NCBI GenBank assembly: GCA_026392515.1
Contig: JAPLBY010000001.1
Location: forward strand, 1-64,000
DNA: 64,000 bases
Direction of reading: 5' to 3'
From: Actinomycetota bacterium
GTDB taxonomy: Bacteria; Actinomycetota; Actinomycetes; S36-B12; UBA5976
Below are positions 1-15,212 of the stretch, piece after piece; within the stretch, counting starts at the first letter, position 1, and the number at the start of each line of letters is the position of its first letter. Made by a program: the position numbers and the translations under genes. A model generated the notes under the pieces. That model searched no databases. It saw only the letters and a program-made list of their open reading frames with translations, and was not told the DNA's origin.

Positions 1-3000
1 GCAACTGGGGGCGGGGTAATTGTTGGAGTTAGCGTTGAGGTCACCGAGCGGCCAAGTCCGTCAGTGATCTGGTAAGTAACTGGAGTCTTTGCACCCGGGG
101 TTGCTGATGACGCAGCCGCGTAAGTAACGATTCCAGTAGTTGGGTTAAGTGTGTAAGTTCCTTGGCCAGCAATAGTAACAATGCCATCGGTATCACAAAC
201 GCTTGTTGCTGGATCAATAATGCAAACGGTTGAGTTTGTTAAGTCCGGTGCGCCAGTTCCCTTAGTTGCAAGAGCTGGATCAGTATCACCAGTTTGGCCA
301 TCAAAGATTGAACTAAACACCTTTGACTGCCCTGGCAAAAGTTCAACTGTGTCAGGGGTTGCGGTTGGAACTGGCGGAACTGTGACAGTTGGGGTGTAAG
401 TCGTTGAAGACTTCTGGCCGAGTGCGTCAGTAACAGAGTAGGTAACTGGTGTTGCCGTTCCGGTAAATGTTGGAAGTGGATCGAACGTAACAATTCCAGT
501 TGCTGGATCAATCGTGTAAGTTCCTTGATTTGCAATCACAACTGAACCGCCCGAAGTTACGGTGCAATTTGGCGCAGTATCAGTTGGCGCACAAAGGCGA
601 ACTGAACCTGCTGCCAGGGTTGTTCCAGTCGCAGCTGAGTCAGAAGTGTTTACATTATTTGTAACAACGTTACGAGTCTGGTTAGTATCCCAAGGACCAG
701 TTGAAGTATCAGGAATCAGCGTTGGAGGCGGGATAACTGTTGGTGTGTAGGTTGCAGTTGCCTTCACATCAAAGTTATCTTCAACAATGTAAGAAAGTGG
801 TGATGGCGTTCCGCTGTATCCGTTGACCGGGGTAAAGGTCATAACGCCAGAGGAATCAACGGCGTAAGTTCCAACATTTGCAACTGTCACCGATGTCTTG
901 GTGCAGTTAGGCGCAACTTCAGCAGGAGCATTTGGATCACAAAGTTTTACAGACGCAACATCAAGTGTTGCCCCAGATGCCGCTGAATCATTCGTCACCA
1001 GGGTCTTAGTTTGCGCAGTATTCATTGGTCCAGATGAAGTGTCATTTAGTGCAGTTGGACCAGGGATAACAGTCGGGGTAATCGTTGCCGAAGTAACTTG
1101 TGGTGTTGAACCAGTATCAGAAACTTGGTATCGAACTGGAACAGAAACTGTTCCAGTAAAGCTTGGAATCGGATCAAACGTTACAACGCCAGTTGTTGGA
1201 TTTACCGTGTAAGTACCATCAGCAGTCGTAAGAGTTGTGAGCGTGCAGTTCGGAGAAGTTTGCGCTGGATTAGTGCCACAAAGTTTCACAGTTGCTGGAT
1301 TCAGTGGGTCGCCAGCTGGGTTAGTTGGAACCGTGTCGTTGTTAAGAACATCAATTAGCTGGTTCTTGTCTTGGCCATTTGTTGAAGTGTCGTTGATTGC
1401 CACTGGTGCTGGGGTAACTGATGGTGTGTAAGTAGTGGTCGCGCTTTGGCCCAGAGCATCAGACACTGTGTAAGTAACAGGTGTTGCTGTGCCAGTAAAC
1501 GCAGGGAGCGGAGTGAAAACTACAGTTCCATCGGCTGCTGCAGCGGAATATGTTCCCTGGTTTGCAATGGTTACTGTTCCATCGATGTTCCTTGTGCAAT
1601 TTGGCGCGCTAGCGCAGGAAAGCGTTACGGTGCTTGAAACCAAAGTTGTTCCAGTGGCCGCGGCATCACTTGTGCCTGCAGTGTTGGTAACAACGTTTCG
1701 TGACTGAGGAACACCTTGTGGACCCGTTGAAGTATCAGGTGTCGCAGTTGGGGTCCCGATAACTGTTGGCGTATAGGTCGAAGAAGCCTTTGCACCAAGG
1801 GAGTCTGTGACTGTATATGAAAGCGGTGTTGGCGGTGTACCAACATAGTTTGGATCTGGAGTGAAGGTCATCTTGCCGGTTGAATCAACACTGTAAGTTC
1901 CAACGCCTGCAACTGTCACAGAAGTCTTTGTGCAGTTTGGTGCGACTTCTGCAGTTGGATTTGAATCACAAAGTTTGACCGATGTTGGATCAAGCGTTGC
2001 ACCTGTTGCAGCATTATCGTTACCAACCAAGCTGACCTCTTGAGATGCACCCTTTGCGCCAGTAGTTGTGTTTGGCGAAGCCGTTGGCGGTGCAACAACA
2101 GTTGGTGTGTAGGTAGAACCTGCAGTAGCCCCAAGTGAATCGGTTACTTGGTAGGCAACTGGTGTTGGAGTTCCAACATAGTTGGCATCTGGAGTGAAAG
2201 TCATAACGCCATTAACAACTGTGTAGGTTCCAACTCCTGGAACAGTAAGAGTTGTCAAAGTGCAATTTGGAGCAACCTGGGCTGGATTAGTTGTTGGATC
2301 ACACAGCTTCACAGATGAAGCCACCAAAGATATGGCTGGATCTGAAGTTGAATCGCCAACTAGCAAATCTGTTGTTTGTGCCACGCCCTTGCTACCAGTT
2401 GTTGTCTCTGCATCAGCTGTTGGTGGGGCAGGTGGATTAACAGTTGGCGTGTAGGTTGAAGTTGCGGTTTGACCTAAGTTGTCAGAAACGGTGTAGGTGA
2501 CCGGAGTTGCTTGACCTGTAAAAGTGTCAAGAGGGTCAAATGTAACGACGCCGGTGGCAGCATCAACCGTGTAAGTACCCTGGTTTGCGATCGTTACTTC
2601 AGTGACAACACCATTAACGCTGGTTTCAGTACAGTTGGCGGCACTCGCGCACGAAATCGTTACAGACGTTGAATCTAGGGTGGCCCCGTTAGCTGCAACA
2701 TCGTCACCAGCGTTTCCGTCCACATTGTTAACAACATTTATTGACTGATTTGCCTTCCAAGCTCCACTGGTGGTGTCTGGATTTGCTGTTGGGGTTCCGA
2801 TAACTGTTGGCGTGTAGGTAGAAGTTGCAGTGCCACCCATTGAGTCAGTTACTTGGTATGCGACTGGAGTTGGCGTACCGACGTATGTTGAAAGTGGCGT
2901 AAAGGTCATCACGCCATTAACAACTGTGTAGGTTCCAACGTTTGGAACCACCAAAGTAGTCAATGTGCAGTTTGGAGCAATTTCATTAGTCGCTGGATCA

Positions 3001-4925
3001 CAAAGCTTTACAGATGACGCAACTAAATTAATGTCAGGATCCGAAGTTGCATCTCCCACCAACAAATCAGTGGTCTGAGCTGACCCCTTCTTGCCCGATG
3101 TGGTTTCAGGATCTGCAGTTGGAGGATCTGGGGCAAAAACTGTTGGAGTAATGGTTGAATCAACAATTACTCCACGGGTATCAGCAACTTGGTACTTAAG
3201 TGGGGTCTGAACGGTTCCAGCAAAAGTTGGTAGTGGGTTAAAGGTAACTGTGCCATCTGAATTAAGCGTGTAAGTACCCTCACCTGGAATTGTTACAGTT
3301 CCATTCACGCCCACTGAACAGTTGTTTGGTGACTGTGCTTCGTTTGTTGGCGAAGTTGCTGGATCATCAACTTGGCAAAGACGAATAGTTGAGGCACTGA
3401 TTGGGAATGCGGCTGATCCCGCGGTGTCATTACCTAATGGTGTGATGGTCTGATTTTGGTCATAGTCGCCAGAACTTACGTTAGCTACCGCGACAGGTGG
3501 TGGTGGGGTTCCAACAGTTGGTGTGTAAGTTGAATTCACAAAACGATCTAATGAATCTTTCGTCTGATACGTAATTGGCGTTGCTTGCCCAGTAAATGTT
3601 GCAAGTGGGGTGAAGGTAATGCGACCAGTTGCTGCGTCGTATGCGTATGTGCCTTGATTTGGAATAGTTACTGAGGTCGCTGAACAGTTATTTGGGCTTT
3701 GCGCTTCATTTGTAAGCAACGTGCTTGCATCATCTATTGCACACAACTTAAAGTTCGACTGTGAAAGCGGGAAGGACGCAGAGCCAGGCGTCTCATTCGT
3801 TAATGGCGTAGTACTTTGTGCCGTGTTGTATGGACCCGATGTGGTTTCTGGCGCAGCACTTGGTACAGGTGGAAGACCTACTGTAGGTGTGATGTTCGCA
3901 GAAACCTTTCGGCCCAGCGCATCCGTAACCTGATAACCAACAGGAGTTGCAACCGTTCCAGTAAATGTTGGCAGTGGATTGAAAGTTACTGTGCCATCTG
4001 AATTAACTGTGTATGTTCCATCCGCAGTTGTTAGCGACGTCAAAGTGCAGTTTGGTGATGTTTGAGGTGGTGTCGAAGCGGGATTGCAAAGCTTGACTGT
4101 CTCTGGAAGCAAGGTTTGTTCGTTGCTTCCAGAACTGTCATTTTCAAGAGGCCTGATCAATTGATTCGTATCGTAATTGCCGCTAGAAACGTCATTAGTT
4201 GCCGTAGCCGTAGGTGGTTGTGCAACAGTTGGAGTAATCGTTGAATTCTCAAACTGACCCAATGTGTCTTGCGCTTGGTATTTAACCGGAGTTGCAACTG
4301 TTCCATAGAAGGTTGGAAGTGGGTTAAACGTTACGGTTCCATCCGAATTGATTGTGTAGGTGCCTTCACCCGGAATGGTTACTGAGGTCGCTGAACAACT
4401 ATTTGGAGACTGTGACTCATTGACTCCGCTTGTTGCTGGGTTATCAACCTGGCAAAGCTTTATTGAATTAGCTACTAATGGGTAGCTTGCACTTCCACGA
4501 ATGTCATTACTTAAAGGATTGATGATTTGATCTTTATCGTAATCTCCACTTGAGGCATCAGGAATGCCGGTCGGTGCAGGAATGACGACTGGGTTAATGG
4601 TTGATGACGATGTTCTGTTTTGAGTGTCGGCAATTTGATATTTGATTGGAGTTGCAGTTCCAGTAAATGTTGGGTCTGGATCAAAAGTTACTGTGCCATT
4701 TGCATTAAGTGTGTAGGTTCCTTCGCCTGGAATTGTTAAGGATTGACCAACGCCAATCGTGCAATTCATAGGTGTTTGCGCTGGAAGGCAAAGGAACATT
4801 TTTGCCATGTTATTGGCTGCACCTGCTTCGAACTGATCATTTACCAATGGGCTAATGGTTTGATTTACATCCTTGGCGCCAATGGAATCGTCTCTAACCG
4901 CAGATGGAATTGCAAAGCTGGCAAT
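1..4925 (-). repeat. Fourteen CshA-type fibril repeats within the giant gene
   Basis: Reading leftward on the minus strand, units of about 110-128 codons each end in a TPTV-type strand followed by a Pro-rich hinge. The ends lie near 4590, 4215, 3880, 3525, 3140, 2800, 2440, 2105, 1760, 1415, 1070, 740, 390 and 20. The core of each unit reads roughly VKLC..NC..GTYT..G.(V/M)TF.P...(F/Y)TGT..PV.Y.V.D..G. This matches my memory of the CshA-type fibril repeat. Most units carry a pair of cysteines near the start. The last unit reaches the window edge, so the true count may be higher. Confidence 0.8.
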
Positions 4926-7900
4926 GGAAAGTGAGTAGTCTTCAACTTCACCAGAACCTACTTTTCCGGAAGGCAAAGCCAACGAATCGTAACTTAGGCG
5001 CACGCGAGCATAGGTAGGTCCGGAGACAATGTTGCTTGGAATTGTCCACAAGATGTTTGCGGAAGTTTGGCCAACTGTAGGACTTGGTGCACAAGCTCGT
5101 TCAGTAGCAGTGAAAATTCCATCTCTGTTGAAGTCAATCCAGGCACAAAGATTCGCTGTTTCGGTGACACCAGCAAGCGTTACTGGAATCGTGAATGTTT
5201 GCCCCGCTTGGTTATTCATCAAGCCATTCCAAGCTGACTGAGGAACACCATCGTCAACCACAACATTTCCATTGGACATATTGATTGCGCCAGCTTTGAT
5301 CTCGGTGCCCGCGGCTACTGCATCCGCATTTGTTGTTGAGTAGAGGCTGGATGGATTATCAGCAGTTACTACGCTGCCAAGCTTTAGGCTGCCTAATGCG
5401 TGGCTAGCTACTGGGTTGTCATAACTTGTTGGCACCATTCCGAAGTCTTCGGGGATGCTTACAGTTAAGTTCCAGGCGTCTTCATTTCCACCATCGCCGC
5501 CAACGCTTGATGCAGCATATTCAAAATTGACCTGGAAAGTAGCTGATGTATAGACGCCCTCTAGTTGTAGCGATCCACAGACCGCTTGAGAGTTGGCGCC
5601 ATAGCCCGATGTTCTGTGGCAATAAATGGCAGGGACTGTTCCATCAACATTTCCAACGACAGTTCCATTTTGTGAAATTTGAATATTTGTACCGGCGAGC
5701 GCGGTAAATCTGGCGCCGGGTACGGAACTAGTTCCATTCATTCCCCCAAGAAGTTGCATTTCAGACCAACCAGCACCATTGCTACCGCCACCCCAACCGG
5801 CGAAGGAAACGACAGGATTTGTCACAGGCTTGCTAAAGCTGATTGTCATTACACCGCGGTTATCACAGCGGCCAATCAATTGATTTGCAACACATCCATC
5901 ATTGGAAGTCCACATCATTAGACCTGGTTCAGTTACCAAGCCAACAGATTGGAAGTCACCTGCTTGTCCACCACGCTCACTTAATGATTCAGTTGCTTGA
6001 TCGATACATAGGTAGTCACCGGTAACGGAAACTGTGTAAGTAACACCATTAGGTAAGAGTTTTGATTTCGAACTATTCCTATAAGCCGAACCAGCGCTTG
6101 GGCAACCTTGTGTTGGTTGGCCACCAACCCATTCCCAGGAAGTACTTGTTGGTTGGTTGCTGGTGTTGAAAGATAATGCATCGTTTCCACGCAGATCCTG
6201 AAGTGCTGAATTAGAAGCGTTAGAAACTACAGGAGAAGGGGCCGTGTATGAAACTGCAACAACGCTACCGGGCGCGATCGACGATGGAAGCGTTAGAACA
6301 ATAGTTTGACCCGAGATGGTTACTGCCGTTGGAGTGATCGGATCGTTACCCGCAAACACTGTGTACTTATCAGCTGTGGCGGAGGTTGAGCTAAGTGGTT
6401 CACTCAGCGTAACTGTTACCTGATTGCCTGAAAAAGTAACGGTAGAGACAGTCGGTGGAGTTACATCAGGTTGGCCGTTTGAGTTATTTGTAACCACAGT
6501 ACTAGTCAGGGTTGCTGCATCATTTCCTGACAGATCCTGAACCGCTGAATTTGTGGTTGCCCCATTCGGAGTTGGAGCCACATAAGAAACGGAAACAGAT
6601 TCGCCTGAAACAATACTTGTGCCGACAGTCAGGACAACAGTTGAACCACTAACTGAAACTGCGGTTGGGCTAAACGTCAGGCCGTTCAAGGTTATGGAGT
6701 AGTCAGAAGGAAGCGCAGTTTTTGAACTCAACGCCTCGTTGTAGGTCAAGATGATCTGTGTGCCATTTGTATTAGTCGCGGCAGACTGGAAGACCGGTGC
6801 GGTTCGATCAACAACTGCAGTGGATGTATTAGGTACTGAGGTAGCTGCAATTGCGGCAGCGTCATTTCCGTATACGTCTTGAATGGCTGCAGCATCTGCA
6901 CGACTGTTTGGAGTTGGCGGCGTGTATGCAACAGATACAGTTTGTCCCAATTCAATTGGCGGGGACATTGTCAATGTAAGTTGCTGACCGACAACCGCAA
7001 CGCTACTTACAGTTGACGCAGTTCCATTAACAAGAACTGTGAACATGCTTCCTGTTGGAACAACTCCACCCATTGCCTCGTCATATGTCAAAACTATTGT
7101 TTGTCCATTTGTGCCTGGCATGGTGATTGATGTAAGCGTTGGGGCCGTTACATCTCCAGGCTGAGTGGAACTGTTTGTAAGCGGTTTTTCAGTGAAACTT
7201 CTGGCAGTTTGGTCGGGAAACGGAGTGCTAGATGGATACTCCCAGCTCGCTGTGACTGTAGAACCTGCTGGAATTGTTGGTGTACAGCCGGAAAACGCAA
7301 AGGAATTTGCAGGTGTGCCATATCCAAGTGTCGAACACTTTACTGCCATGCCGTTGGCATAAAGGGTTAAGTTACTTGCCCAGGCGGAGCTAAGCGCAAC
7401 TCCCTTGGAAAATACTATGGTTGCCGACGTTCCATTGGCATTAACGGTACCGCTGAGAAAACCAGGTGGGCCCTGAGTGGAACCGTTTGTCACACCAAAT
7501 GAATTGGCAATACTTAACGCATCATTTCCAGTTGTGTCCTGGATTGCGGAATTTGTTGTGGCTGTGTCAGGGGTTGGAGGTGTGTAAGCAACAGTTACAT
7601 CTTGGCCGCCATTTACTGTCGAACCTAAAGCAAGAGTAACCGTGGATCCATTTACCGTTACCGTACTTACTGTCACTGGAGTTCCATCAACTGTCACTAC
7701 ATATGAAGAAGCAGCTGGTTTGTTTACAGTGTTTAGAGACTCGTTGTAAAAGAGAACAAGGGTCGTTCCGGTTGTAGCGATAGATGCGCTACTCAACACA
7801 GGTGGTGTTTGATCCTGAGTTGAATTGTTCGTTACAGTCACCGCTGTTGAAGCAGTTGACGTATTGCTTGCAAGATCTGAAATTCCTGGAACATTTGCAG

Positions 7901-10900
7901 TGACTGTAAATCCAGGTTGTTTTCCAACTGGACTAGCTAGCGTCACAACAATTGTTGAAGTATCTGTTCCGCGTGCCACAGAACTAACTGTTACTGGTGA
8001 ACCATTTAAATTGATCACGAAGTTACTCGCACTTGGAAGCGACGCATTAATTGCTTCATTGAAGGTAAGTGTTAACGTCGTTCCGTTTGCACTTACAGTC
8101 GGAGCACTCGCTCCGGTTGTTATCAAAACTGGTGCGGTTGTATCGAGTGTTGAATTGTTCGTTACTGCTGTTGCTGCAAACGTTGCCGCATCATTTCCAG
8201 TAGTGTCCTGAATCGCACTATTGCTTGTTCCTGCAACATTAGATGGAGCGTTATATGCAACGGTGATTACATTGTTGGCTTGAACTGGGGTTGCAAGTGT
8301 CAATACAACTGTTGATCCGCTCACCGAGACGGAACTAACACTGACTGGTGATCCTGCAACGGTGACGACAAAGTTGCTGGTTTGGGCAGCAGTTGCGAAT
8401 AGGGATTCGTTGTAAGTGAGTGTCAGTTCATACCCAGTTGAATTCAACTTAGGTTGGTTTGGGGACGCTGTGACTATTACAGGTGCGGTCTGGTCCTGTG
8501 TGGAATTATTTATTGCATTTGTCGCGGTAAAGCTTGCAGCATCGTTACCTGTTGTGTCCTGTACTGCAGCGTTTGTTGTAGCCGTATTAGAAGTTGGTGC
8601 TGTGTAGGCCACCGTCACCTGCGGATTACTTGTTGTTATACCTTGACCAATCGGTGCTGACAAAGTTAAGACAACGGTGGAACCTGATGTTGCAACGGAA
8701 CTAACTGTTCTGGCTACTCCACCAACGTTAACTGTGAAGTTGCCAGTCGCTGCGGTAGTTGCATGTAAAGGTTCGTTGTAAGTAAGGGTTACGGTTAGGC
8801 CGTCAGCGCTCACTGTAGGTGCCGGTGATGTACTCAGAACTGGAGCCACATTGTCGTAGGTTGAGTTGTTAGTAAGTGGTTGGCTGTTGAATGACCTAAC
8901 ATCACGACCGGCAACATCCTGGAGAGTTTGCTCGCTACTGGATGTGTCGTTTAATGCATATGCAGGTGAGTAACTTGCAGTTACTGTTGCATTTCTCGGG
9001 ATCGTGCTTTGGTTTGATGCCAACGGAAATGTAATTGTGCTACCTGAAACAGTGACCGGAGTAGTCAGAGTGTAGTTTCCACTGGTTGATGTCAGGGTTA
9101 GGCGTACGCCAGAAGAGCTTCCGACAGTGTTGGTCGACATTGGTTCGCTGAACGTTATAGTCACCGATCGGCCATCAGCGTTAACTACACCTGAAATAAC
9201 TGTTGGATTTATAGTGTCAACAGTTGAGCTATTTGTCGCGAGTGCAGTTGTTGAAAGCGACAGCGAATCAGTTCCCACCAAGCTTTGAATAGCAGCAGTT
9301 GCTGTTGAGTCATCAACTGAAGCTGGTGCCTGATAGGCAACAGTTACAGTCGATCCCTTTTCAACTGCCGCTGAAAGCGTTAGCGTGACTGTTTTACCAC
9401 TTATCGCAACTGTGCTTACGGTCTTGGTTACACCGCTTTCCTGAACCGTAAACATGGAAGCTGTTGGCAGCGGACTTGCGAGCAGATCCACATCGTAAGT
9501 TAAAACAATTGTGTTACCTGCACTTGTGTTAGTTGCTGAGACAAATGTTGGTGCAGTACGAGTTGGAGTGACTGAATTTGAAGCAACCGATGCAGAAGAT
9601 GCAGCATCACGATTGAGAGCGACCGCAGTAAATGTGTAAGCAGTACCATTGGTTAAACCCGTAATTGTGCAACTTCCTGATGCACCAGTAACAGTACAAG
9701 TTGCACCACCTGGTGATGCTGTAACGGTATAGCTAGTTGGCGTCACACCAGTTGCTGCGGCAACTGTGACTGTGGCCTGCCGATCGGTTGCAACGGCAGT
9801 GGGGGCCGGTGGTGTTCCTGGCGCAACATTTGTCGGAGTTAATCGCTGAATCCAAGGACTAGCGGAAAGACCTACAACAATCTTTCCAAGGTCTCCTACG
9901 GGTGCGGCGTGGATACTTATTGCTTTAACAGTTGTTGCGCTCGGGATGCTAGTAGAGAAGTTTGAATCTAGCGTGCCGTTTGTGTTAATCCTTCTAAGTC
10001 CAAATGTTTGACCACCTACAAGTAGTCGTCCAGAAGCATCAAAGGCAATGTCACTGTTGCCGTGCGCAAGGTTTGTAGTTATCGTGCTGCTTAAACCGCT
10101 TCCAATTCCTGATGCAATCGTTCCGAGAACTCCAAAGCTCGTATCTTCGGTACCAGTGGGTTTTAAAACCCTAATCCGACCCATTGAATTATCGCCACCA
10201 AAGGCAATCATTTGCCCAGTGCCAGTACCTGTCACGGCTACGTTAGTGGCTCCAGTAGTGCCAAGCGCATTTGTGATGGCAGTGACAGTTGAGATTGTGT
10301 TCGAAGTTGATATTTGCGCATAGCGAGCTGGAAAATTTCCGACTGCGTGAATGACGCCTGATGAATCAACTGCCATGTCATAGACGTATTCAGTACTAGC
10401 CGTAATTAATGTACCTGAATTTGACTGGAAAGATCCGCTTGAATTATATCTTGCTAATCGAGCATTAAGAGGGCTACTTACATCAGATGCTAACCAATAA
10501 TTCGTTGATGCAACGGCCACGGCAGTTACATTCACATTTCCCGGAGTGCTCCACTTTGTCCAAGTAACACCATTAGCACTTAGTATTCCAGCTCCCCAAG
10601 TGGTTCCAACGAAAACGTTGTTGGAAGCATCGAGTGCAATTGCGGTTACGACAGCGCCAAGATTAGGAGAGGTCCAAGTTAGTGATCCAGTCGATGTGTA
10701 TTTTCTAACCTCGTTGTACTCTGCGACGTAAACGTTTCCCAATGAATCGATCGCAGTGTCTGCAACTATTTGTGCCGGCACATTCGGTGCTACTGCAGTA
10801 TTCCAAGTTGTGTCATTACCACCGGCTGTATTTGCACTCGCTGGTGAAAGTTGCGAGCTAACTGTTTGATCAACGAAGGTGAATGTTCCGGCAAGAAGTG

Positions 10901-10967
10901 CAGTTGCAATTACGGTGTGCAAAATATTGCGGCCAAGTTTGCGGTGACGACCACGCTGTGTTGTCAT
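1..10967 (-). CDS. Giant secreted repeat protein (CshA-type/SWM adhesin), 3' part beyond window
   Basis: One frame stays open from the ATG at 10967 to base 1: 3655 codons without a stop, with the C-terminus outside. I translated most of it and spot-checked the frame at several points. Residues 1-45 form a signal peptide (basic start, hydrophobic core, ASA cleavage site). Residues ~50-370 resemble NHL/SMP-30 propeller blades with AIDSLGNVYVAEY-like strings. Residues ~376-466 look like fibronectin type III. Residues ~466-1590 hold ten SWM/Ig-like repeats, ~1590-2013 a Cys-rich region ending in GEVEDY, and ~2014-3655 fourteen CshA-type repeats ending TYTPTV. The domains suggest a cell-surface or secreted adhesive fibre; attachment and ligand are unknown because the C-terminus is missing. 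The upstream two-component pair may control it (inference). Confidence 0.9.
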   Translation of the reverse strand, partial: MTTQRGRHRKLGRNILHTVIATALLAGTFTFVDQTVSSQLSPASANTAGGNDTTWNTAVAPNVPAQIVADTAIDSLGNVYVAEYNEVRKYTSTGSLTWTSPNLGAVVTAIALDASNNVFVGTTWGAGILSANGVTWTKWSTPGNVNVTAVAVASTNYWLASDVSSPLNARLARYNSSGSFQSNSGTLITASTEYVYDMAVDSSGVIHAVGNFPARYAQISTSNTISTVTAITNALGTTGATNVAVTGTGTGQMIAFGGDNSMGRIRVLKPTGTEDTSFGVLGTIASGIGSGLSSTITTNLAHGNSDIAFDASGRLLVGGQTFGLRRINTNGTLDSNFSTSIPSATTVKAISIHAAPVGDLGKIVVGLSASPWIQRLTPTNVAPGTPPAPTAVATDRQATVTVAAATGVTPTSYTVTASPGGATCTVTGASGSCTITGLTNGTAYTFTAVALNRDAASSASVASNSVTPTRTAPTFVSATNTSAGNTIVLTYDVDLLASPLPTASMFTVQESGVTKTVSTVAISGKTVTLTLSAAVEKGSTVTVAYQAPASVDDSTATAAIQSLVGTDSLSLSTTALATNSSTVDTINPTVISGVVNADGRSVTITFSEPMSTNTVGSSSGVRLTLTSTSGNYTLTTPVTVSGSTITFPLASNQSTIPRNATVTASYSPAYALNDTSSSEQTLQDVAGRDVRSFNSQPLTNNSTYDNVAPVLSTSPAPTVSADGLTVTLTYNEPLHATTAATGNFTVNVGGVARTVSSVATSGSTVVLTLSAPIGQGITTSNPQVTVAYTAPTSNTATTNAAVQDTTGNDAASFTATNAINNSTQDQTAPVIVTASPNQPKLNSTGYELTLTYNESLFATAAQTSNFVVTVAGSPVSVSSVSVSGSTVVLTLATPVQANNVITVAYNAPSNVAGTSNSAIQDTTGNDAATFAATAVTNNSTLDTTAPVLITTGASAPTVSANGTTLTLTFNEAINASLPSASNFVINLNGSPVTVSSVARGTDTSTIVVTLASPVGKQPGFTVTANVPGISDLASNTSTASTAVTVTNNSTQDQTPPVLSSASIATTGTTLVLFYNESLNTVNKPAASSYVVTVDGTPVTVSTVTVNGSTVTLALGSTVNGGQDVTVAYTPPTPDTATTNSAIQDTTGNDALSIANSFGVTNGSTQGPPGFLSGTVNANGTSATIVFSKGVALSSAWASNLTLYANGMAVKCSTLGYGTPANSFAFSGCTPTIPAGSTVTASWEYPSSTPFPDQTARSFTEKPLTNSSTQPGDVTAPTLTSITMPGTNGQTIVLTYDEAMGGVVPTGSMFTVLVNGTASTVSSVAVVGQQLTLTMSPPIELGQTVSVAYTPPTPNSRADAAAIQDVYGNDAAAIAATSVPNTSTAVVDRTAPVFQSAATNTNGTQIILTYNEALSSKTALPSDYSITLNGLTFSPTAVSVSGSTVVLTVGTSIVSGESVSVSYVAPTPNGATTNSAVQDLSGNDAATLTSTVVTNNSNGQPDVTPPTVSTVTFSGNQVTVTLSEPLSSTSATADKYTVFAGNDPITPTAVTISGQTIVLTLPSSIAPGSVVAVSYTAPSPVVSNASNSALQDLRGNDALSFNTSNQPTSTSWEWVGGQPTQGCPSAGSAYRNSSKSKLLPNGVTYTVSVTGDYLCIDQATESLSERGGQAGDFQSVGLVTEPGLMMWTSNDGCVANQLIGRCDNRGVMTISFSKPVTNPVVSFAGWGGGSNGAGWSEMQLLGGMNGTSSVPGARFTALAGTNIQISQNGTVVGNVDGTVPAIYCHRTSGYGANSQAVCGSLQLEGVYTSATFQVNFEYAASSVGGDGGNEDAWNLTVSIPEDFGMVPTSYDNPVASHALGSLKLGSVVTADNPSSLYSTTNADAVAAGTEIKAGAINMSNGNVVVDDGVPQSAWNGLMNNQAGQTFTIPVTLAGVTETANLCAWIDFNRDGIFTATERACAPSPTVGQTSANILWTIPSNIVSGPTYARVRLSYDSLALPSGKVGSGEVEDYSLSIASFAIPSAVRDDSIGAKDVNQTISPLVNDQFEAGAANNMAKMFLCLPAQTPMNCTIGVGQSLTIPGEGTYTLNANGTVTFDPDPTFTGTATPIKYQIADTQNRTSSSTINPVVIPAPTGIPDASSGDYDKDQIINPLSNDIRGSASYPLVANSIKLCQVDNPATSGVNESQSPNSCSATSVTIPGEGTYTINSDGTVTFNPLPTFYGTVATPVKYQAQDTLGQFENSTITPTVAQPPTATATNDVSSGNYDTNQLIRPLENDSSGSNEQTLLPETVKLCNPASTPPQTSPNCTLTSLTTADGTYTVNSDGTVTFNPLPTFTGTVATPVGYQVTDALGRKVSANITPTVGLPPVPSAAPETTSGPYNTAQSTTPLTNETPGSASFPLSQSNFKLCAIDDASTLLTNEAQSPNNCSATSVTIPNQGTYAYDAATGRITFTPLATFTGQATPITYQTKDSLDRFVNSTYTPTVGTPPPPVAVANVSSGDYDQNQTITPLGNDTAGSAAFPISASTIRLCQVDDPATSPTNEAQSPNNCSVGVNGTVTIPGEGTYTLNSDGTVTFNPLPTFAGTVQTPLKYQVADTRGVIVDSTITPTVFAPDPPTADPETTSGKKGSAQTTDLLVGDATSDPDINLVASSVKLCDPATNEIAPNCTLTTLVVPNVGTYTVVNGVMTFTPLSTYVGTPTPVAYQVTDSMGGTATSTYTPTVIGTPTANPDTTSGAWKANQSINVVNNVDGNAGDDVAANGATLDSTSVTISCASAANCTETSVNGVVTEVTIANQGTYTVDAATGVVTFDPLDTFTGQATPVTYTVSDNLGQTATSTYTPTVNPPAPPTADAETTTGSKGVAQTTDLLVGDSTSDPAISLVASSVKLCDPTTNPAQVAPNCTLTTLTVPGVGTYTVVNGVMTFTPDANYVGTPTPVAYQVTDSLGATAGSTYTPTVVAPPTASPNTTTGAKGASQEVSLVGNDNAATGATLDPTSVKLCDSNPTAEVAPNCTKTSVTVAGVGTYSVDSTGKMTFTPDPNYVGTPPTPLSYTVTDSLGAKASSTYTPTVIGTPTATPDTSTGPQGVPQSRNVVTNTAGTSDAAATGTTLVSSTVTLSCASAPNCTRNIDGTVTIANQGTYSAAAADGTVVFTPLPAFTGTATPVTYTVSDALGQSATTTYTPSVTPAPVAINDTSTNGQDKNQLIDVLNNDTVPTNPAGDPLNPATVKLCGTNPAQTSPNCTLTTLTTADGTYTVNPTTGVVTFDPIPSFTGTVSVPVRYQVSDTGSTPQVTSATITPTVIPGPTALNDTSSGPMNTAQTKTLVTNDSAASGATLDVASVKLCDPNAPAEVAPNCTKTSVTVANVGTYAVDSSGVMTFTPVNGYSGTPSPLSYIVEDNFDVKATATYTPTVIPPPTLIPDTSTGPWDTNQTRNVVTNNVNTSDSAATGTTLAAGSVRLCAPTDTAPNCTVTSGGSVVIANQGTYTIDPATGIVTFDPLPTFTGTATPVTYSVTDALGQKSSTTYTPTVTVPPVPTATPDTVELLPGQSKVFSSIFDGQTGDTDPALATKGTGAPDLTNSTVCIIDPATSVCDTDGIVTIAGQGTYTLNPTTGIVTYAAASSATPGAKTPVTYQITDGLGRSVTSTLTPTITPPPV
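4925..6190 (-). other. Cys-rich region with GEVED domain in the giant protein
   Basis: Residues ~1593-2014 separate the two repeat arrays. The first part is rich in W, G and C and resembles an ectodomain of unknown family. The last ~100 residues contain WIDFNRDGIFTATE and then SGEVEDYSL, the hallmark of GEVED domains found in large extracellular proteins. The DxNxDG stretch looks like a calcium loop. Its ligand cannot be told from sequence. Confidence 0.65.
6190..9570 (-). repeat. About ten SWM/SwmB-like Ig-fold repeats within the giant gene
   Basis: Units of about 105-120 codons start with TAPV-type strands near 9550, 9215, 8865, 8505, 8150, 7830, 7475, 7165, 6825 and 6485. Each contains LTYNE.L, a VSG(S/Q)TV.L.L strand, V.VAY..P and GNDA.S, and ends with NNST. 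This fits bacterial Ig-like SWM repeats known from very large surface proteins. The units have diverged in DNA sequence, so they are old duplications rather than a recent tandem expansion. Confidence 0.7.
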
Positions 10968-10997
10968 GCAGTCACCGCCAAAGTTGAGCTATAAGTT

Positions 10998-11009
10998 TTT
11001 GTATACAAA
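10998..11009. promoter_or_regulatory. 12-bp palindrome upstream of the giant gene
   Basis: TTTGTATACAAA is a perfect palindrome centred about 36 bases upstream of the giant gene's ATG. It is flanked by T- and A-rich tracts. It could be an operator or overlap the promoter -10 region; which one cannot be decided here. Confidence 0.35.
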
Positions 11010-11033
11010 CTTTTTTGGGGCGCAACAAAACAT

Positions 11034-11051
11034 TGCACAACATTTTGTGCA
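11034..11051. promoter_or_regulatory. 7-bp inverted repeat upstream of the giant gene
   Basis: TGCACAA and TTGTGCA face each other across the four bases CATT. The element lies about 70-85 bases before the giant gene's start, inside the 243-base gap that separates it from the histidine kinase gene. An operator or a leader-RNA stem are both possible. Confidence 0.35.
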
Positions 11052-11141
11052 TATGTATATGTAGTGAATTGCACCAAAGTGAAATTACTTCCCCGTAAAC
11101 CCAACAACCTTGTTCAAGAGATTACGTTTAGGCAAAAGGGC

Positions 11142-11185
11142 TTAGGGCTCAAATACGGGGTTACCCTAAGGTCAACGCATTAGGG
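11142..11185 (-). promoter_or_regulatory. Competing-hairpin leader with GTTACCC motif
   Basis: On the plus strand TTAGGG (11142-11147), CCCTAA (11164-11169) and TTAGGG (11180-11185) follow each other. The middle copy can pair with either neighbour, so two mutually exclusive 6-bp stems are possible in a minus-strand transcript running from the kinase gene into the giant gene. GGGGTTACCC (11157-11166) overlaps the middle copy. The pattern suits either a protein-binding site or an attenuator-like leader; neither is proven. Confidence 0.35.
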
Positions 11186-11210
11186 CATTTTGAGCGGGTC
11201 TAGCGAGTTT

Positions 11211-12974
11211 TCAATTACGTTCGATCGCGAATTTCGCGGTCAGAATCATTCCTGAATTTAGATCCGGTTCAAGCGACCAAGAGCTGCAGACATCATCTAG
11301 AAGTTTGGTTCCAAGACCTTGGGTTTTCCCCGTGTTTGAGAAAGATCCGTTGTCTTTCGCTTCCAATACAAGTACTGAATCTTCAGTGTTTACAGCGATT
11401 TCAACTTTTGTGGCCTTTCCGTGCTTTGAAGCGTTACTAACTGCTTCGCGCAGGACTTCAGCCAGACATTCGGATGTCGCCGGGTTCTTCCGCAAGACCT
11501 CGAGGGCATCGGGTGAAACCTGCCATTTGGTTTCGATCGTGCCAGCCCAGATTTTTGAGATTTCTTGCTGAGCCTGTTCGAAGGAGTAGCTCTGCCCAGA
11601 TTCAAATCCCACTCGAGCCAGGGCTCGGGCTATATTGCCTCGCACCGATTCAATTAGCTCTGGAGTTGGGTTACTGGTGGAGCCAAGCTGAAGGACGGCC
11701 GCGTTGAGCGCGCTTTGCAGTGAGCCATGAATTACATATCCGACTTGGCGACGAGATAACCATTCTTTTTGACTTAATAGTGAAATGGTTGATTCCAAAT
11801 TTTCAATTGTCACAGTAAGGTCGGAAATTAATTGCGTTCTCTGGCTGGTCAAGATTGTGTAGCCAAGGTTAGAGAAGCCATAAATTAGTCCAACGAAAAC
11901 GGTTGCGCCAGATATGTTTTGTGGAATTTCAATTGGTAAATAACTTTCCACAAACAAAATCAATGGACCAACTGATCCAAAAACAACGGCTCCCATTGCT
12001 AACCCGATTGCTAATGGAATCTCTCTGTGGCCAAACAACTTATTAAAGGTAACAAAATAGAAAATCAGTAGAGCTGTCGTAATGACATTAAAAGGTAGTG
12101 CTTCAACAAATGTCATGGTTCGTTGCGCTGCCGCTGCATAAGTAATAAAAAACAGAAGTGTTGTTATGTAAGGCCGCATTGATTGTGACAAGTTAATTGC
12201 TTTTGGTAACTCGAGTTTTTTCTCAGACGTATCTACATGTACCGCTAGAGCTTGAATAGATTTATCGTGTGCAATCTGATGACTGAAGGGGCGTAACTCG
12301 GTTTCGACATACTCCTGCATCTCATGGACTGCGATGTCTTTATTTCCACCGAACTTTAATGCAACTAACAACTGATCGATCTTATCTATTCGAGGTGTTA
12401 CTACTTGCTGGGCGTACTCTCGCAAGTTTTTTGCCGCCACTTGTAAACGTGTGTCCATCGAGATACGCAGCTGTGCTAACTCACTAGTTTTGTTTTCCAG
12501 ATTTCGCACTAAGTTCGAATGCTGATCGAAAACGGCAATGCTAATTGCGATTACCGATAGGACGGTTGAGATAAACACTCCACCACTTAGAATTCGAAAC
12601 GCAAGCTTTGGATCATCAGTAAACCCTAGGAATACTGTAGAAAATCCAAGGATAGATCCCCTAATGCTCTGCGCGAAGACAAAGGCAATCAAGGTGGCGA
12701 TTGGATGGGATTCGTTGTCGCGATTCCCATGAATTAGCTTTCCAGCAATCAGAATCATGACAGTAAATCCGGAATGCGCAAGCAGAATCAAACCTGTCCA
12801 AAGCAGAAATGATCCTCCAAAGTCTGCGCGATCAATAAAGATCGGACTTAGAGATCCTGGAAGAAGAAAAAGTAGGGTTAAGCGAAAACTTAACGATGAA
12901 CGTAAGCCAAGCAAGTACCAAAGAGAGTTGTTTTCAGAATCAACTTTGGTGTTTTCCATAGCTGCTGAATGCAT
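11211..12974 (-). CDS. Membrane sensor histidine kinase
   Basis: The 587-residue protein has two membrane blocks, each of about four segments (residues ~30-150 and ~268-375), separated by a soluble helical stretch (~155-265). A cytoplasmic kinase core follows. H416 in YVIHGSLQ is the likely phosphoacceptor. The ATPase part shows an N-box (EVLREAVSNASKHG, ~507-519), a G1 box (DNGSF, ~541) and a G2 box (GLGTKLL, ~553), as in the NarL/DesK type. It starts two bases after the regulator gene's stop (TAG GA ATG), so translation is probably coupled. The regulator upstream is the obvious partner. The signal sensed is unknown. Confidence 0.85.
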   Translation of the reverse strand: MHSAAMENTKVDSENNSLWYLLGLRSSLSFRLTLLFLLPGSLSPIFIDRADFGGSFLLWTGLILLAHSGFTVMILIAGKLIHGNRDNESHPIATLIAFVFAQSIRGSILGFSTVFLGFTDDPKLAFRILSGGVFISTVLSVIAISIAVFDQHSNLVRNLENKTSELAQLRISMDTRLQVAAKNLREYAQQVVTPRIDKIDQLLVALKFGGNKDIAVHEMQEYVETELRPFSHQIAHDKSIQALAVHVDTSEKKLELPKAINLSQSMRPYITTLLFFITYAAAAQRTMTFVEALPFNVITTALLIFYFVTFNKLFGHREIPLAIGLAMGAVVFGSVGPLILFVESYLPIEIPQNISGATVFVGLIYGFSNLGYTILTSQRTQLISDLTVTIENLESTISLLSQKEWLSRRQVGYVIHGSLQSALNAAVLQLGSTSNPTPELIESVRGNIARALARVGFESGQSYSFEQAQQEISKIWAGTIETKWQVSPDALEVLRKNPATSECLAEVLREAVSNASKHGKATKVEIAVNTEDSVLVLEAKDNGSFSNTGKTQGLGTKLLDDVCSSWSLEPDLNSGMILTAKFAIERN

Positions 12975-12976
12975 TC

Positions 12977-13645
12977 CTAGATTGACACTTGGTCAGATTT
13001 ATAGTCGGCCCTAATTCCTACAACACTCAAATACTTGCTTACTGCAGCGGTTCGCGAATTGCCATCCAGCGAACTATCAATTCCAATTGCTTGGCACGCA
13101 CGTCTGATTGCATCTTCAGTTGCTTTAAGCGAAGTTCCGCGTGCAGTTGCAATTTGGGCATTTGATTTACCCTGCGACATTAAATGTAATACTTCAATCT
13201 GTTTAACAGTGAGTGCTGCAAATGGACGAGATTTGTCTAGGTCATGTCGATGCAGTGGTGTTACTTCCCCACGCATCGCGACATCTAATGCGTCATACAA
13301 AACGTTCAAGTCAGCTAGAGCAGACTTACGGATGTATGCGATGCCATTTGGCAAACCTTGTTCGTTTTCAACTGCAAATCTTGGATCCGGCAATTGCGTT
13401 AAGAAAACAACACCGGTTCCTGGTGCTTCTTTAAGTGCGGTCTGAGCAAAATCAAAACCATTTGGTCCTGGACCTAGATCCACATCAAGTACTAAGCCGT
13501 CAGGATCTGTGGCATGAAAGAGTTTCTTTGCATCAACTACATTTGATGCGGTTTGAACGGCATAACCTCGGACTTCGAGCGCGGTAGCAATCAGCTCGCG
13601 CAAGAGATCGTCGTCTTCGACAACCAGTACCAATCTTGAAGACAT
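12977..13645 (-). CDS. LuxR/NarL-type response regulator
   Basis: The receiver domain (residues ~1-120) shows the acidic pocket EDDD at 10-13, the phosphoacceptor D54 in VLDVDLG, the switch threonine in VVFLT and the lysine in YIRKSA. A GerE/LuxR-type helix-turn-helix follows (~145-205; LTVKQIEVLHLMSQGKSNAQIA). The recognition part is less canonical, with T..KATEDAIRRA where E.TVK.H is usual. It is the first gene of an operon with the histidine kinase. GTTACCC-type motifs lie just upstream of its start and again ahead of the giant adhesin gene, so autoregulation plus adhesin control is a reasonable hypothesis. Confidence 0.88.
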   Translation of the reverse strand: MSSRLVLVVEDDDLLRELIATALEVRGYAVQTASNVVDAKKLFHATDPDGLVLDVDLGPGPNGFDFAQTALKEAPGTGVVFLTQLPDPRFAVENEQGLPNGIAYIRKSALADLNVLYDALDVAMRGEVTPLHRHDLDKSRPFAALTVKQIEVLHLMSQGKSNAQIATARGTSLKATEDAIRRACQAIGIDSSLDGNSRTAAVSKYLSVVGIRADYKSDQVSI

Positions 13646-13781: not shown

Positions 13782-15212
13782 CTACAGGGTTTTCAGCGAG
13801 TTAACTACCTTGGTCAACGAATCCTTGGCATCACCGAAAAGTAGCGATGTCTTTGGATCAAACAGCACTTCGTTCTCGATGCCAGCAAATCCTGGACGCA
13901 TTGAGCGCTTGAGGAAAACCACCTGCTGAGCTTGGTCCACGTTCAAGATTGGCATGCCATAGATAGGTGCAGTCTTGTCGTCTCGAGCAGCTGGGTTAAC
14001 AACGTCGTTCGCGCCAACTACCAAGGCAACATCAGTTGATGGGAATTCTGGATTGATTTCATCCATTTCCTTTAGCTGTTCGTAAGGAACATTTGCCTCG
14101 GCAAGAAGAACGTTCATGTGTCCTGGCATACGACCAGCAACTGGGTGAATTGCGTAATCAACTTCGATTCCCTTTGCAACCAACAACTCAACAAGCTCGC
14201 GAATTGTGTTTTGCGCTTGAGCAACTGCCAAGCCATAACCCGGAACGATAATTACCTTGCGTGCGTAACCCAACATGATTGCAACATCTTCAGGTGATGC
14301 GGACTTAACTGGACGATCTTCAGCCGAAGCAGCAGAGGTTGATGCCTTTGCAGTGAATGCGCCAAACAAAGTGTTGGTAAGTGGTCGACCCATTGCTTTT
14401 GCCATCATGCGCGTCAGCAATGTTCCCGATGCGCCAACAAGAGTTCCAGCAACGATCAATAGGACGTTGCCAAGTACGTAACCGGAAGCCGCTACCGACA
14501 GACCAGTGAAAGCGTTAAGCAACGAGATAACAATTGGAACGTCAGCTCCACCAACAGGAAGCACAAGCAAGATACCAAGTACTAATGAAAGTCCTAGAAG
14601 TAACCAGAGCAAAGTATTTGTTGGATTCACAATTAGAAGAACTGCAGTCGCAATAGTTGCAACAGCAACACCGATTGTTATGAAACGTCCTAGTGGAATT
14701 ACAACTGGACGCGATGTCATTAGTTCTTGCAGTTTTGCATAAGTCAACAACGAGCCTGTGAAGGAAACCGAACCAACAACAACTGTGAAGATTGTTGCAG
14801 TCAGAATTGGAATGCTTTCGGATTCAACCGACAAGAATTCGATTACCGAGATAACAGCGGCAGCTCCACCGCCAACACCGTTGAATAGCGCAACCATCTG
14901 TGGCATCTGAGTCATCTGAACTCGACGCGCAGCAACCCAACCGATGATGGAACCAATTGCGATAGCAATCAAAATTTGTGGCAAGTGCTTAACTGGGCCA
15001 CCGTAATATTCTTGGCCATAGAAGAACACAACTGCAGTTGCAATCGCAGCTCCAGCGGCGCCAAGTAAGTTTCCACGACGCGCACTCTTAGGTGAAGATA
15101 ATCCCTTAAGCGCAAGGATGAATAAAACTGCTGCCAGTAATTCGGCTAAGCGAACCCAAGTTGGTGTGATTGCCGATGCTTGTTCAGCAAACCGAATCGA
15201 AGTAGATGTCAT
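13782..15212 (-). CDS. pntB: NAD(P) transhydrogenase subunit beta
   Basis: The 476-residue protein has about nine membrane segments in its first ~280 residues, then a soluble NADP(H)-binding domain (~305-476). The latter contains VIIVPGYGLAVAQAQ, HPVAGRMPGHMNVLLAEA, VVGANDVVNPAA and PILNVD, all standard for PntB. With the two alpha polypeptides upstream it forms the proton-translocating transhydrogenase, which uses the proton gradient to make NADPH from NADH. It overlaps the preceding gene by four bases, so the three genes form one operon. Confidence 0.96.
   Translation of the reverse strand: MTSTSIRFAEQASAITPTWVRLAELLAAVLFILALKGLSSPKSARRGNLLGAAGAAIATAVVFFYGQEYYGGPVKHLPQILIAIAIGSIIGWVAARRVQMTQMPQMVALFNGVGGGAAAVISVIEFLSVESESIPILTATIFTVVVGSVSFTGSLLTYAKLQELMTSRPVVIPLGRFITIGVAVATIATAVLLIVNPTNTLLWLLLGLSLVLGILLVLPVGGADVPIVISLLNAFTGLSVAASGYVLGNVLLIVAGTLVGASGTLLTRMMAKAMGRPLTNTLFGAFTAKASTSAASAEDRPVKSASPEDVAIMLGYARKVIIVPGYGLAVAQAQNTIRELVELLVAKGIEVDYAIHPVAGRMPGHMNVLLAEANVPYEQLKEMDEINPEFPSTDVALVVGANDVVNPAARDDKTAPIYGMPILNVDQAQQVVFLKRSMRPGFAGIENEVLFDPKTSLLFGDAKDSLTKVVNSLKTL

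Follow-up and report, generated by a model that had tools for sequence, protein, structure and literature searches.

The order to which this actinobacterium belongs is usually regarded as free-living plankton with small genomes. What is encoded by a minus-strand frame of such a genome that stays open for 3,655 codons until its contig ends, and what might so large a protein do? The window analysed here comprises the first 64,000 nt of the 71,154-bp contig C40 (G000:C40:1-64000), with which it shares its first base; the assembly (G000) consists of 1.69 Mb in 40 contigs and is 94% complete. The answer that we consider probable is a sortase-anchored, CshA-type fibrillar adhesin of ~4,060 residues with a new architecture, in which the putative binding part lies mid-chain.

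Open frame and domain chain

The 5' part of the gene occupies positions 1..10967 on the minus strand (ORF 3..10967), begins with ATG and runs off the contig at base 1. Because base 1 is the end of contig C40, the gene is truncated by the assembly. The ORF listing confirmed that the frame runs from 10967 to base 1 without a stop, as had been claimed in the original prediction, and neither an in-frame stop nor a frameshift was found in the region. A frame of this length would stay open by chance with a probability of ~10^-78 at the same base composition, the other five frames contain 112–238 stops over the gene, and the GC contents of the three codon positions (0.51/0.57/0.35 overall) are steady throughout; this ORF is the coding frame. 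On the plus strand over it, the two ORFs of at least 100 aa begin with TTG and contain no Pfam family above the cut-off. Tandem Repeats Finder listed no tandem arrays in the gene, and its repeats are 68–75% alike at the DNA level; therefore, a collapsed repeat in the assembly is unlikely. A periscope-type protein was considered and rejected on the same grounds, because the near-identical tandem DNA repeats of that type are not present. The product is acidic and Thr-rich (17% Thr; 108 K+R versus 232 D+E). A first genome-contig scan with the whole protein returned 14 pattern matches, none of which is a relative.

Pfam and NCBIfam searches supported the claim of a secreted repeat protein of at least 3,655 residues in the proposed domain order and detected all three of the families expected, CshA, SWM and GEVED. 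From the N- to the C-terminus, the chain consists of a signal peptide, a beta-propeller, an fn3 domain, eight SWM repeats, a domain designated X, a GEVED domain and 14 CshA repeats, all on the minus strand. These domains, their order and the likely export signal are read from the window itself. The signal peptide region (aa 1-46, 10830..10967), recognized by eye from a basic start, a hydrophobic stretch and ASANTA, is 68% identical to that of G013, another genome of the genus. The N-terminal beta-propeller (aa 47-395, 9783..10829) was detected by weak HMM matches (DUF5122, 22.1 bits against its own cut-off of 27) and by a predicted model, of which the best of five has a pLDDT of 72.0 and a pTM of 0.80, the other four have pLDDT values of 54.7–58.9, and the underlying alignment has three rows only, one of them poorly aligned. 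The best Foldseek matches of this model are 7-bladed propellers (E ~1e-11). The fn3 domain (aa 396-470, 9558..9782; PF00041, E 2e-5) is barely at its cut-off (25.1 against 25 bits).

The SWM repeat arm (aa 471-1604, 6156..9557) gave strong matches to PF13753 (E 1.4e-95) and TIGR02059 (E 6.1e-73), and eight stretches pass on their own, two fewer than the ten repeats originally counted. The count of 14 CshA repeats stood: the array (aa 2021-3655, 3..4907), which runs on past the contig end, matches PF19076 at E 2.1e-176 (574.8 bits, cut-off 27) and TIGR04225 at E 5e-209 (679.5 bits, cut-off 60), and the sequence search of solved structures gave a single match, to 6szc, a chain of CshA. The GEVED region (aa 1846-2020, 4908..5432; PF20009, E 7.5e-15, match at aa 1940-2013) lies between domain X and the first CshA repeat. 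It had been described as Cys-rich. The GEVED domain is present, but cysteines are not special to it: of 40 in total, 28 are in the CshA array, six are in domain X and two are in the GEVED region. Each of the 14 CshA repeats contains two cysteines spaced by 6–19 residues, and these may form one disulphide in each repeat.

Domain X and its relatives

Domain X (aa 1605-1845, 5433..6155, minus strand), which is absent from the original prediction, is a polymer-adhesin-like (CshA NR2-like) beta-sandwich in its predicted model, contains six cysteines and is likely the binding module of the giant. Pfam assigned no family to it, and among the 16 members scanned the sole match was a weak one (E 0.091), to a family that is unrelated; a sequence search against solved structures gave no match, and no copy was found in viral contigs. 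A profile constructed from the copies of the window, G010 (same genus) and G128 recovered 16 named loci in one genome-contig scan, with Aurantimicrobium minutum, G128, G010, Microbacterium, Nocardioides, Lysobacter and its relatives, Burkholderiales, Bacteroidia and Pedobacter as hosts. The 16-row alignment joins the window to 15 loci (L181 was left out because its match spans only 25 residues) and contains nine invariant columns.

The best of five models of domain X (window positions 5427-6155) has a pLDDT of 79.4 and a pTM of 0.83 (range of pLDDT, 76.8–79.4). Foldseek gave nine matches at E<=0.001, every one of them an antigen I/II-type variable domain (best E 1.8e-4, TM 0.36), and the ten best Z rows from VIA all fall on adhesin domains from streptococci (GbpC, Pas, Sgo0707, SspB and antigen I/II), with Z values of 7.3 for GbpC (rmsd 4.3, 175 residues aligned), 7.2 for Pas and Sgo0707 and 7.1 for SspB, followed further down by PrgB (5.9) and Epf (5.0); a Z under 8 and a TM of 0.36 are in a range that a common fold arrangement can reach. 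These top matches are much the same set as that given by DALI for CshA NR2 in the accessible text of PMC10952558, where SpaP, SspB, GbpC, Sgo0707 and PrgB are the best structural homologues, with Epf lower. CshA NR2 is not among the 50 matches listed for the model by Foldseek and VIA, an absence that is compatible with likeness. The same text assigns CshA, CshB and Sgo0707 to the PAD family (PMC10952558, Barringer et al. 2023). The PAD proteins that best match domain X in fold (antigen I/II SspB and Pas, GbpC, Sgo0707 and PrgB) differ from it in that X is only 6–12% identical to them, with Z below 8, and is Cys-bearing, and in their stalk domains. Because the fold scores are moderate, we claim for X a predicted likeness to NR2 and to the polymer-adhesin domains that streptococci carry in their surface proteins, not membership. 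In a separate search of a viral fold library, the best match of the X model was a phage protein named B30.2/SPRY (A0A6J5SUH7, E 2.9e-7).

The position of domain X also agrees with this likeness. NR2 domains invariably have GEVED directly after them according to the accessible part of PMC10952558, and X of the giant likewise directly precedes GEVED. The order of an NR2-like X, GEVED and CshA repeats is thus shared with CshA of Streptococcus gordonii as described there, and a sorting signal at the end is also seen in a relative of the window (G003, below). In contrast to CshA, the giant adds a distal arm of propeller, fn3 and SWM repeats before X, has a Cys pair in every CshA repeat, is associated in its relatives with an LAxTG signal and a class E sortase, and carries an X that Pfam does not recognize.

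The adhesin tip is given in the same partial source as the predominant, though not invariable, site of NR2-like domains (PMC10952558). In the giant, X is not at the N-terminal tip but behind the arm. In 11 of the 13 non-giant loci (L169-L178 and L180), the X match begins 45–222 codons past the upstream stop of the ORF, the later starts being at codons 440 (L179) and 912 (L181). For the four giants, the corresponding start codons are approximately 1605 (window), 1396 (G010), 876 (G128, in which the start of the frame is incomplete) and 2121 (A. minutum); the X domains of these giants form one clade (support 95/91). The arm consists of propeller, fn3 and SWM in the window and G010, of propeller and SWM in G128, and of SWM alone in A. 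minutum. The mid-chain location of X in one clade of giants therefore suggests that these giants are a branch of the CshA-like adhesins that bears an additional arm distal to X and in which an NR2/PAD-like domain is used inside the chain. Domain X itself would represent a Cys-bearing, Pfam-unassigned branch of NR2/PAD-like adhesive domains with relatives in Actinomycetota, Pseudomonadota and Bacteroidota.

Two of these relatives are informative in their overall structure. The giant of A. minutum MWH-Bo1 (NZ_JARXVT010000001.1, 23905-49689; at most 8,594 aa, with an uncertain start) shares the order SWM, X, GEVED and CshA with the window, contains 15 SWM repeats, one GEVED and 51 CshA stretches, and ends with LVRTG, a hydrophobic stretch and RKRRR, an LxxTG-type end in common with the LAKTG-type end of G003; its X is 56% identical to that of the window. 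Unlike the window, it has no propeller in the Pfam scan and no two-component genes among the adjacent ORFs listed; these ORFs include no sortase either, and the one class E sortase of this genome is on a contig other than that of the giant. A 1,474-aa surface protein of Microbacterium sp. Root180 contains X, a GEVED-like stretch (by eye) and an LPATG end, with a sortase gene nearby; compared with the window protein, it is shorter, its X lies right after the signal peptide and its stalk appears DUF11-like by eye. In this Root180 locus (L169, 9815-16882), three genes stand in a row, for the X-headed LPATG protein, for an LPLTG protein resembling pilins and for a sortase, an arrangement reminiscent of a pilus locus that includes an X domain.

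The fold matches bear on a second explanation of the protein, namely wall-anchored capture of dissolved or particulate polysaccharide for feeding, in which X and the propeller would bind glycans and keep the substrate near the cell. The lower-ranked matches of X include concanavalin-type lectins (Foldseek) and carbohydrate-binding modules (VIA), and among the matches of the propeller is the extracellular domain of a regulator that senses heparin. However, the best fold matches of X are adhesins and the Pfam and NCBIfam scans detected no catalytic domain in the giant, and we regard a feeding role as rather unlikely.

C-terminal end, sortase and regulatory genes

The original prediction left the stop codon and any anchor to be sought beyond the contig, and the relatives provided both an LAxTG-kind signal and, after it, a class E sortase gene. 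Contig C144 of G003 begins within the same gene: residues 36-158 of its frame share 98% identity with the final 123 residues encoded in the window (90.9% DNA identity over 449 nt), and 403 more residues follow, which end with GLAKTGG, a hydrophobic stretch and RKR. Because G003 adds these 403 residues, the complete protein of the window probably has about 4,000 residues, or ~4,060 if it ends as in G003. A class E sortase gene starts 38 nt past the G003 giant (473 aa, 193.1 bits against a cut-off of 160), and the same sortase adjoins tadA in G013 (185 bits). Class E sortases use LAXTG signals according to the accessible text of PMC5148588, and the arrangement in G003, a class E sortase beside an LAKTG adhesin end, resembles the SrtE1/LAXTG display of Streptomyces coelicolor described there. 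The G003 sortase differs from SrtE1 in its long N-terminal extension, and its use of LAKTG is a prediction. In the window's own assembly, we found no sortase match, no tadA (only a weak paralogue) and no match outside C40 to the missing C-terminal end; therefore, the bin lacks this stretch altogether. The anchoring of the window protein is thus read from its relatives, which supply the putative sorting signal, the sortase and the C-terminal end.

Several further observations concern sortases of the genus. EPEPEP tracts are present exactly at contig ends, at the start of L097 (G013:C64), in the extension before the sortase domain, and at the end of L098 (G011:C11), in an ORF beside the sortase; such tracts may break assemblies at this locus. 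A surface protein of G012 (L100, G012:C199, 6310-10499), DUF11-like by eye and with an LAFTG end, adjoins another class E sortase, which suggests a separate sortase/substrate pair within the genus. In addition, LADTG-type C-termini occur near sortase matches in G010 and G009 (L062 and L063).

Upstream of the giant, the window contains genes for a membrane histidine kinase (11211..12974, minus strand, 587 aa; HATPase_c E 2.5e-4, below the cut-off; NarX-type match E 2e-6) and a response regulator (12977..13645, minus strand, 222 aa; receiver PF00072 E 9.9e-13, with a weak LuxR-type end), preceded by a housekeeping gene that marks the insertion site and that we take to be pntB from the look of its protein (13782..15212, minus strand); tadA on the other side is likewise presumed from the look of its protein. 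The order pntB–response regulator–kinase–giant of the window agrees with that in G010 and, for kinase and giant, with that in G013, and the order sortase–tadA is seen in G003 and G013; the full order pntB–response regulator–kinase–giant–sortase–tadA is therefore a composite of four genomes.

Parts of this locus are present in 4 of the 23 genomes of the genus (G000, G003, G010 and G013). In eight others (G006, G009, G011, G015, G016, G019, G020 and G022), tadA adjoins pntB at a distance of <500 nt. In G009, the absence of the locus from this site is real because the genome is 98% complete and the site is on a 1.1-Mb contig. One genome, G002, contains at the tadA–pntB site a lone response regulator (L129, G002:C1, 11622-12296; 71% identical to that of the window) with no kinase, adhesin or sortase. 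The remaining 10 fall outside this tally, having no tadA, a contig end or other neighbours. In G011, a distant set of regulator, kinase and SWM protein is located elsewhere on the contig bearing its tadA–pntB pair. The domain chain had been called exceptional, a description that we temper because CshA repeats occur in 13 of the 166 genomes of the order (above the curated cut-off in four) and the A. minutum cousin is longer still; domain X was found in 3 of the 166. One of these 13 genomes, G053, provides a second case of a regulator–kinase neighbourhood: its 2,516-aa CshA protein (L163, G053:C122, 1566-12264) lies beside a divergent LuxR-type regulator and a 755-aa kinase, and its C-terminus appears sortase-type by eye (TLLTC), with no Pfam sortase match there.

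The leader between the kinase and the adhesin (10968..11210, minus strand), which carries GGCGGTGA shortly before the ATG, is 95.0% identical between the window and G010 over its last 180 nt (87.8% for the G013 leader). In the comparison with G010, the last 300 nt of the kinase gene are 84.2% identical, the first 99 nt of the adhesin gene 90.9% and its nt 100-400 53.1%; the leader is more conserved than the surrounding coding sequence. It contains a dyad, GCACAA-N4-TTGTGC (11035..11050). The pattern with one base added 5' (TGCACAA-N4-TTGTGC) has a single site in each of G000, G010 and G013, always in this leader, and its only copy among the other 20 genomes of the genus is in G004. We read that copy as chance rather than as a regulatory site, since it lies inside an ORF resembling a penicillin-binding protein (named by eye). 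The reversed control pattern was found in no genome of the set. The simple reading is that the dyad is a candidate operator for the response regulator; a leader hairpin is also possible, and the dyad was listed as a weak terminator-like site. Rfam gave one snoRNA match on the leader, far below the gathering score, and three tRNAs only on the 64-kb window. In the consensus fold of the three leaders, double changes affect 2 of 70 pairs, of which one falls within coding sequence, and the fold therefore makes no case for a structured RNA leader. A promoter scan found fewer sites than in shuffled sequences.

Proposed function and diversity

Attachment, proposed originally, is the best-supported function. 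The giant would be exported through its signal peptide by the Sec pathway, and the class E sortase encoded just downstream would join it to the cell wall via the C-terminal LAKTG. The CshA array would then form a rigid stalk that holds GEVED and domain X, together the presumed main binding module, and the distal arm off the wall. The arm of SWM, fn3 and propeller would extend the reach beyond X, perhaps with a binding site of its own. The adjoining kinase and response regulator probably control the giant through the conserved leader.

Comparison with G010 revealed that conservation is unevenly distributed along the gene. The flanking genes are 97.7% (regulator), 88% (kinase) and 97.3% (pntB) identical, and the giant itself is 80% identical in the signal peptide, 40% in the propeller, 33% in X and 49% in GEVED. 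The best matches of CshA repeats 1-12 are 41–61% identical and fall on either G010 piece, scattered and not in order, and repeats 13 and 14 are 90% and 86% identical. The two ORFs of G010 were rejected as two genes, because a run of 100 N divides one gene. The ends and the leader are thus conserved and the middle is diverged. This pattern, together with the presence or absence of the locus across the genus, would also be expected if the protein were a variable shield of the cell surface, directed against phages or grazers, in which length and sequence change outweigh binding. However, the residues of X that are conserved across Actinomycetota, Pseudomonadota and Bacteroidota suggest a kept binding function, which makes a shield improbable. 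It is very improbable that the frame arose as an artefact of assembly or belongs to a pseudogene in decay: contigs end inside the gene in the window, G003, G010 and G013 and the G010 copy contains the 100-N gap, but there is no stop in 3,655 codons, the composition is of coding type throughout, G010 and G128 share the domain order and near-identical tandem repeats are absent.

Domain X of the window is 56–59% identical to that of A. minutum, 39–43% to that of G128 and only 33–36% to that of G010, a member of its own genus. The tree groups it with the A. minutum copy at a support of 92/92, which does not reach what the program counts as strong (95 and 80). Transfer or an exchange of domains could explain this closeness without being proven by it; a short A. 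minutum branch combined with fast change in G010 would give the same picture. We tentatively propose that the pntB–tadA segment is an exchangeable attachment island, comprising the two-component system, the leader with its dyad, the giant and the class E sortase, whose conserved ends might let the middle of the adhesin, including the binding module, be swapped by recombination, even with Microbacteriaceae; the product would be a fibre in two parts, in which a CshA stalk on the wall side leads up to the adhesin domain in mid-chain and the distal arm with the propeller may search for or probe another ligand.

The presence of an anchored-fibre gene of >12 kb in some species of the genus and its absence from the site in others point to a switch between planktonic and attached life, which can now be looked for in the genus. 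The larger version is present in the isolate A. minutum MWH-Bo1, and A. photophilum of the same genus is naturally transformable according to the accessible text of PMC11577799; therefore, bench study may be feasible. The word SWM is absent from the accessible parts of two surveys of fibrillar adhesins (PMC8286594 and PMC9210967). Our literature search, which covered largely open-access papers, found no published work on such giant adhesins in Nanopelagicales or freshwater actinobacteria or, judging by the titles listed, in Aurantimicrobium. Giants of another kind, with RCC1-like and fn3 repeats, are also encoded in the genus, by L101 (G008:C11, 4793-14428; 3,211 aa) and L102 (G019:C9, 256-9693; 3,145 aa).
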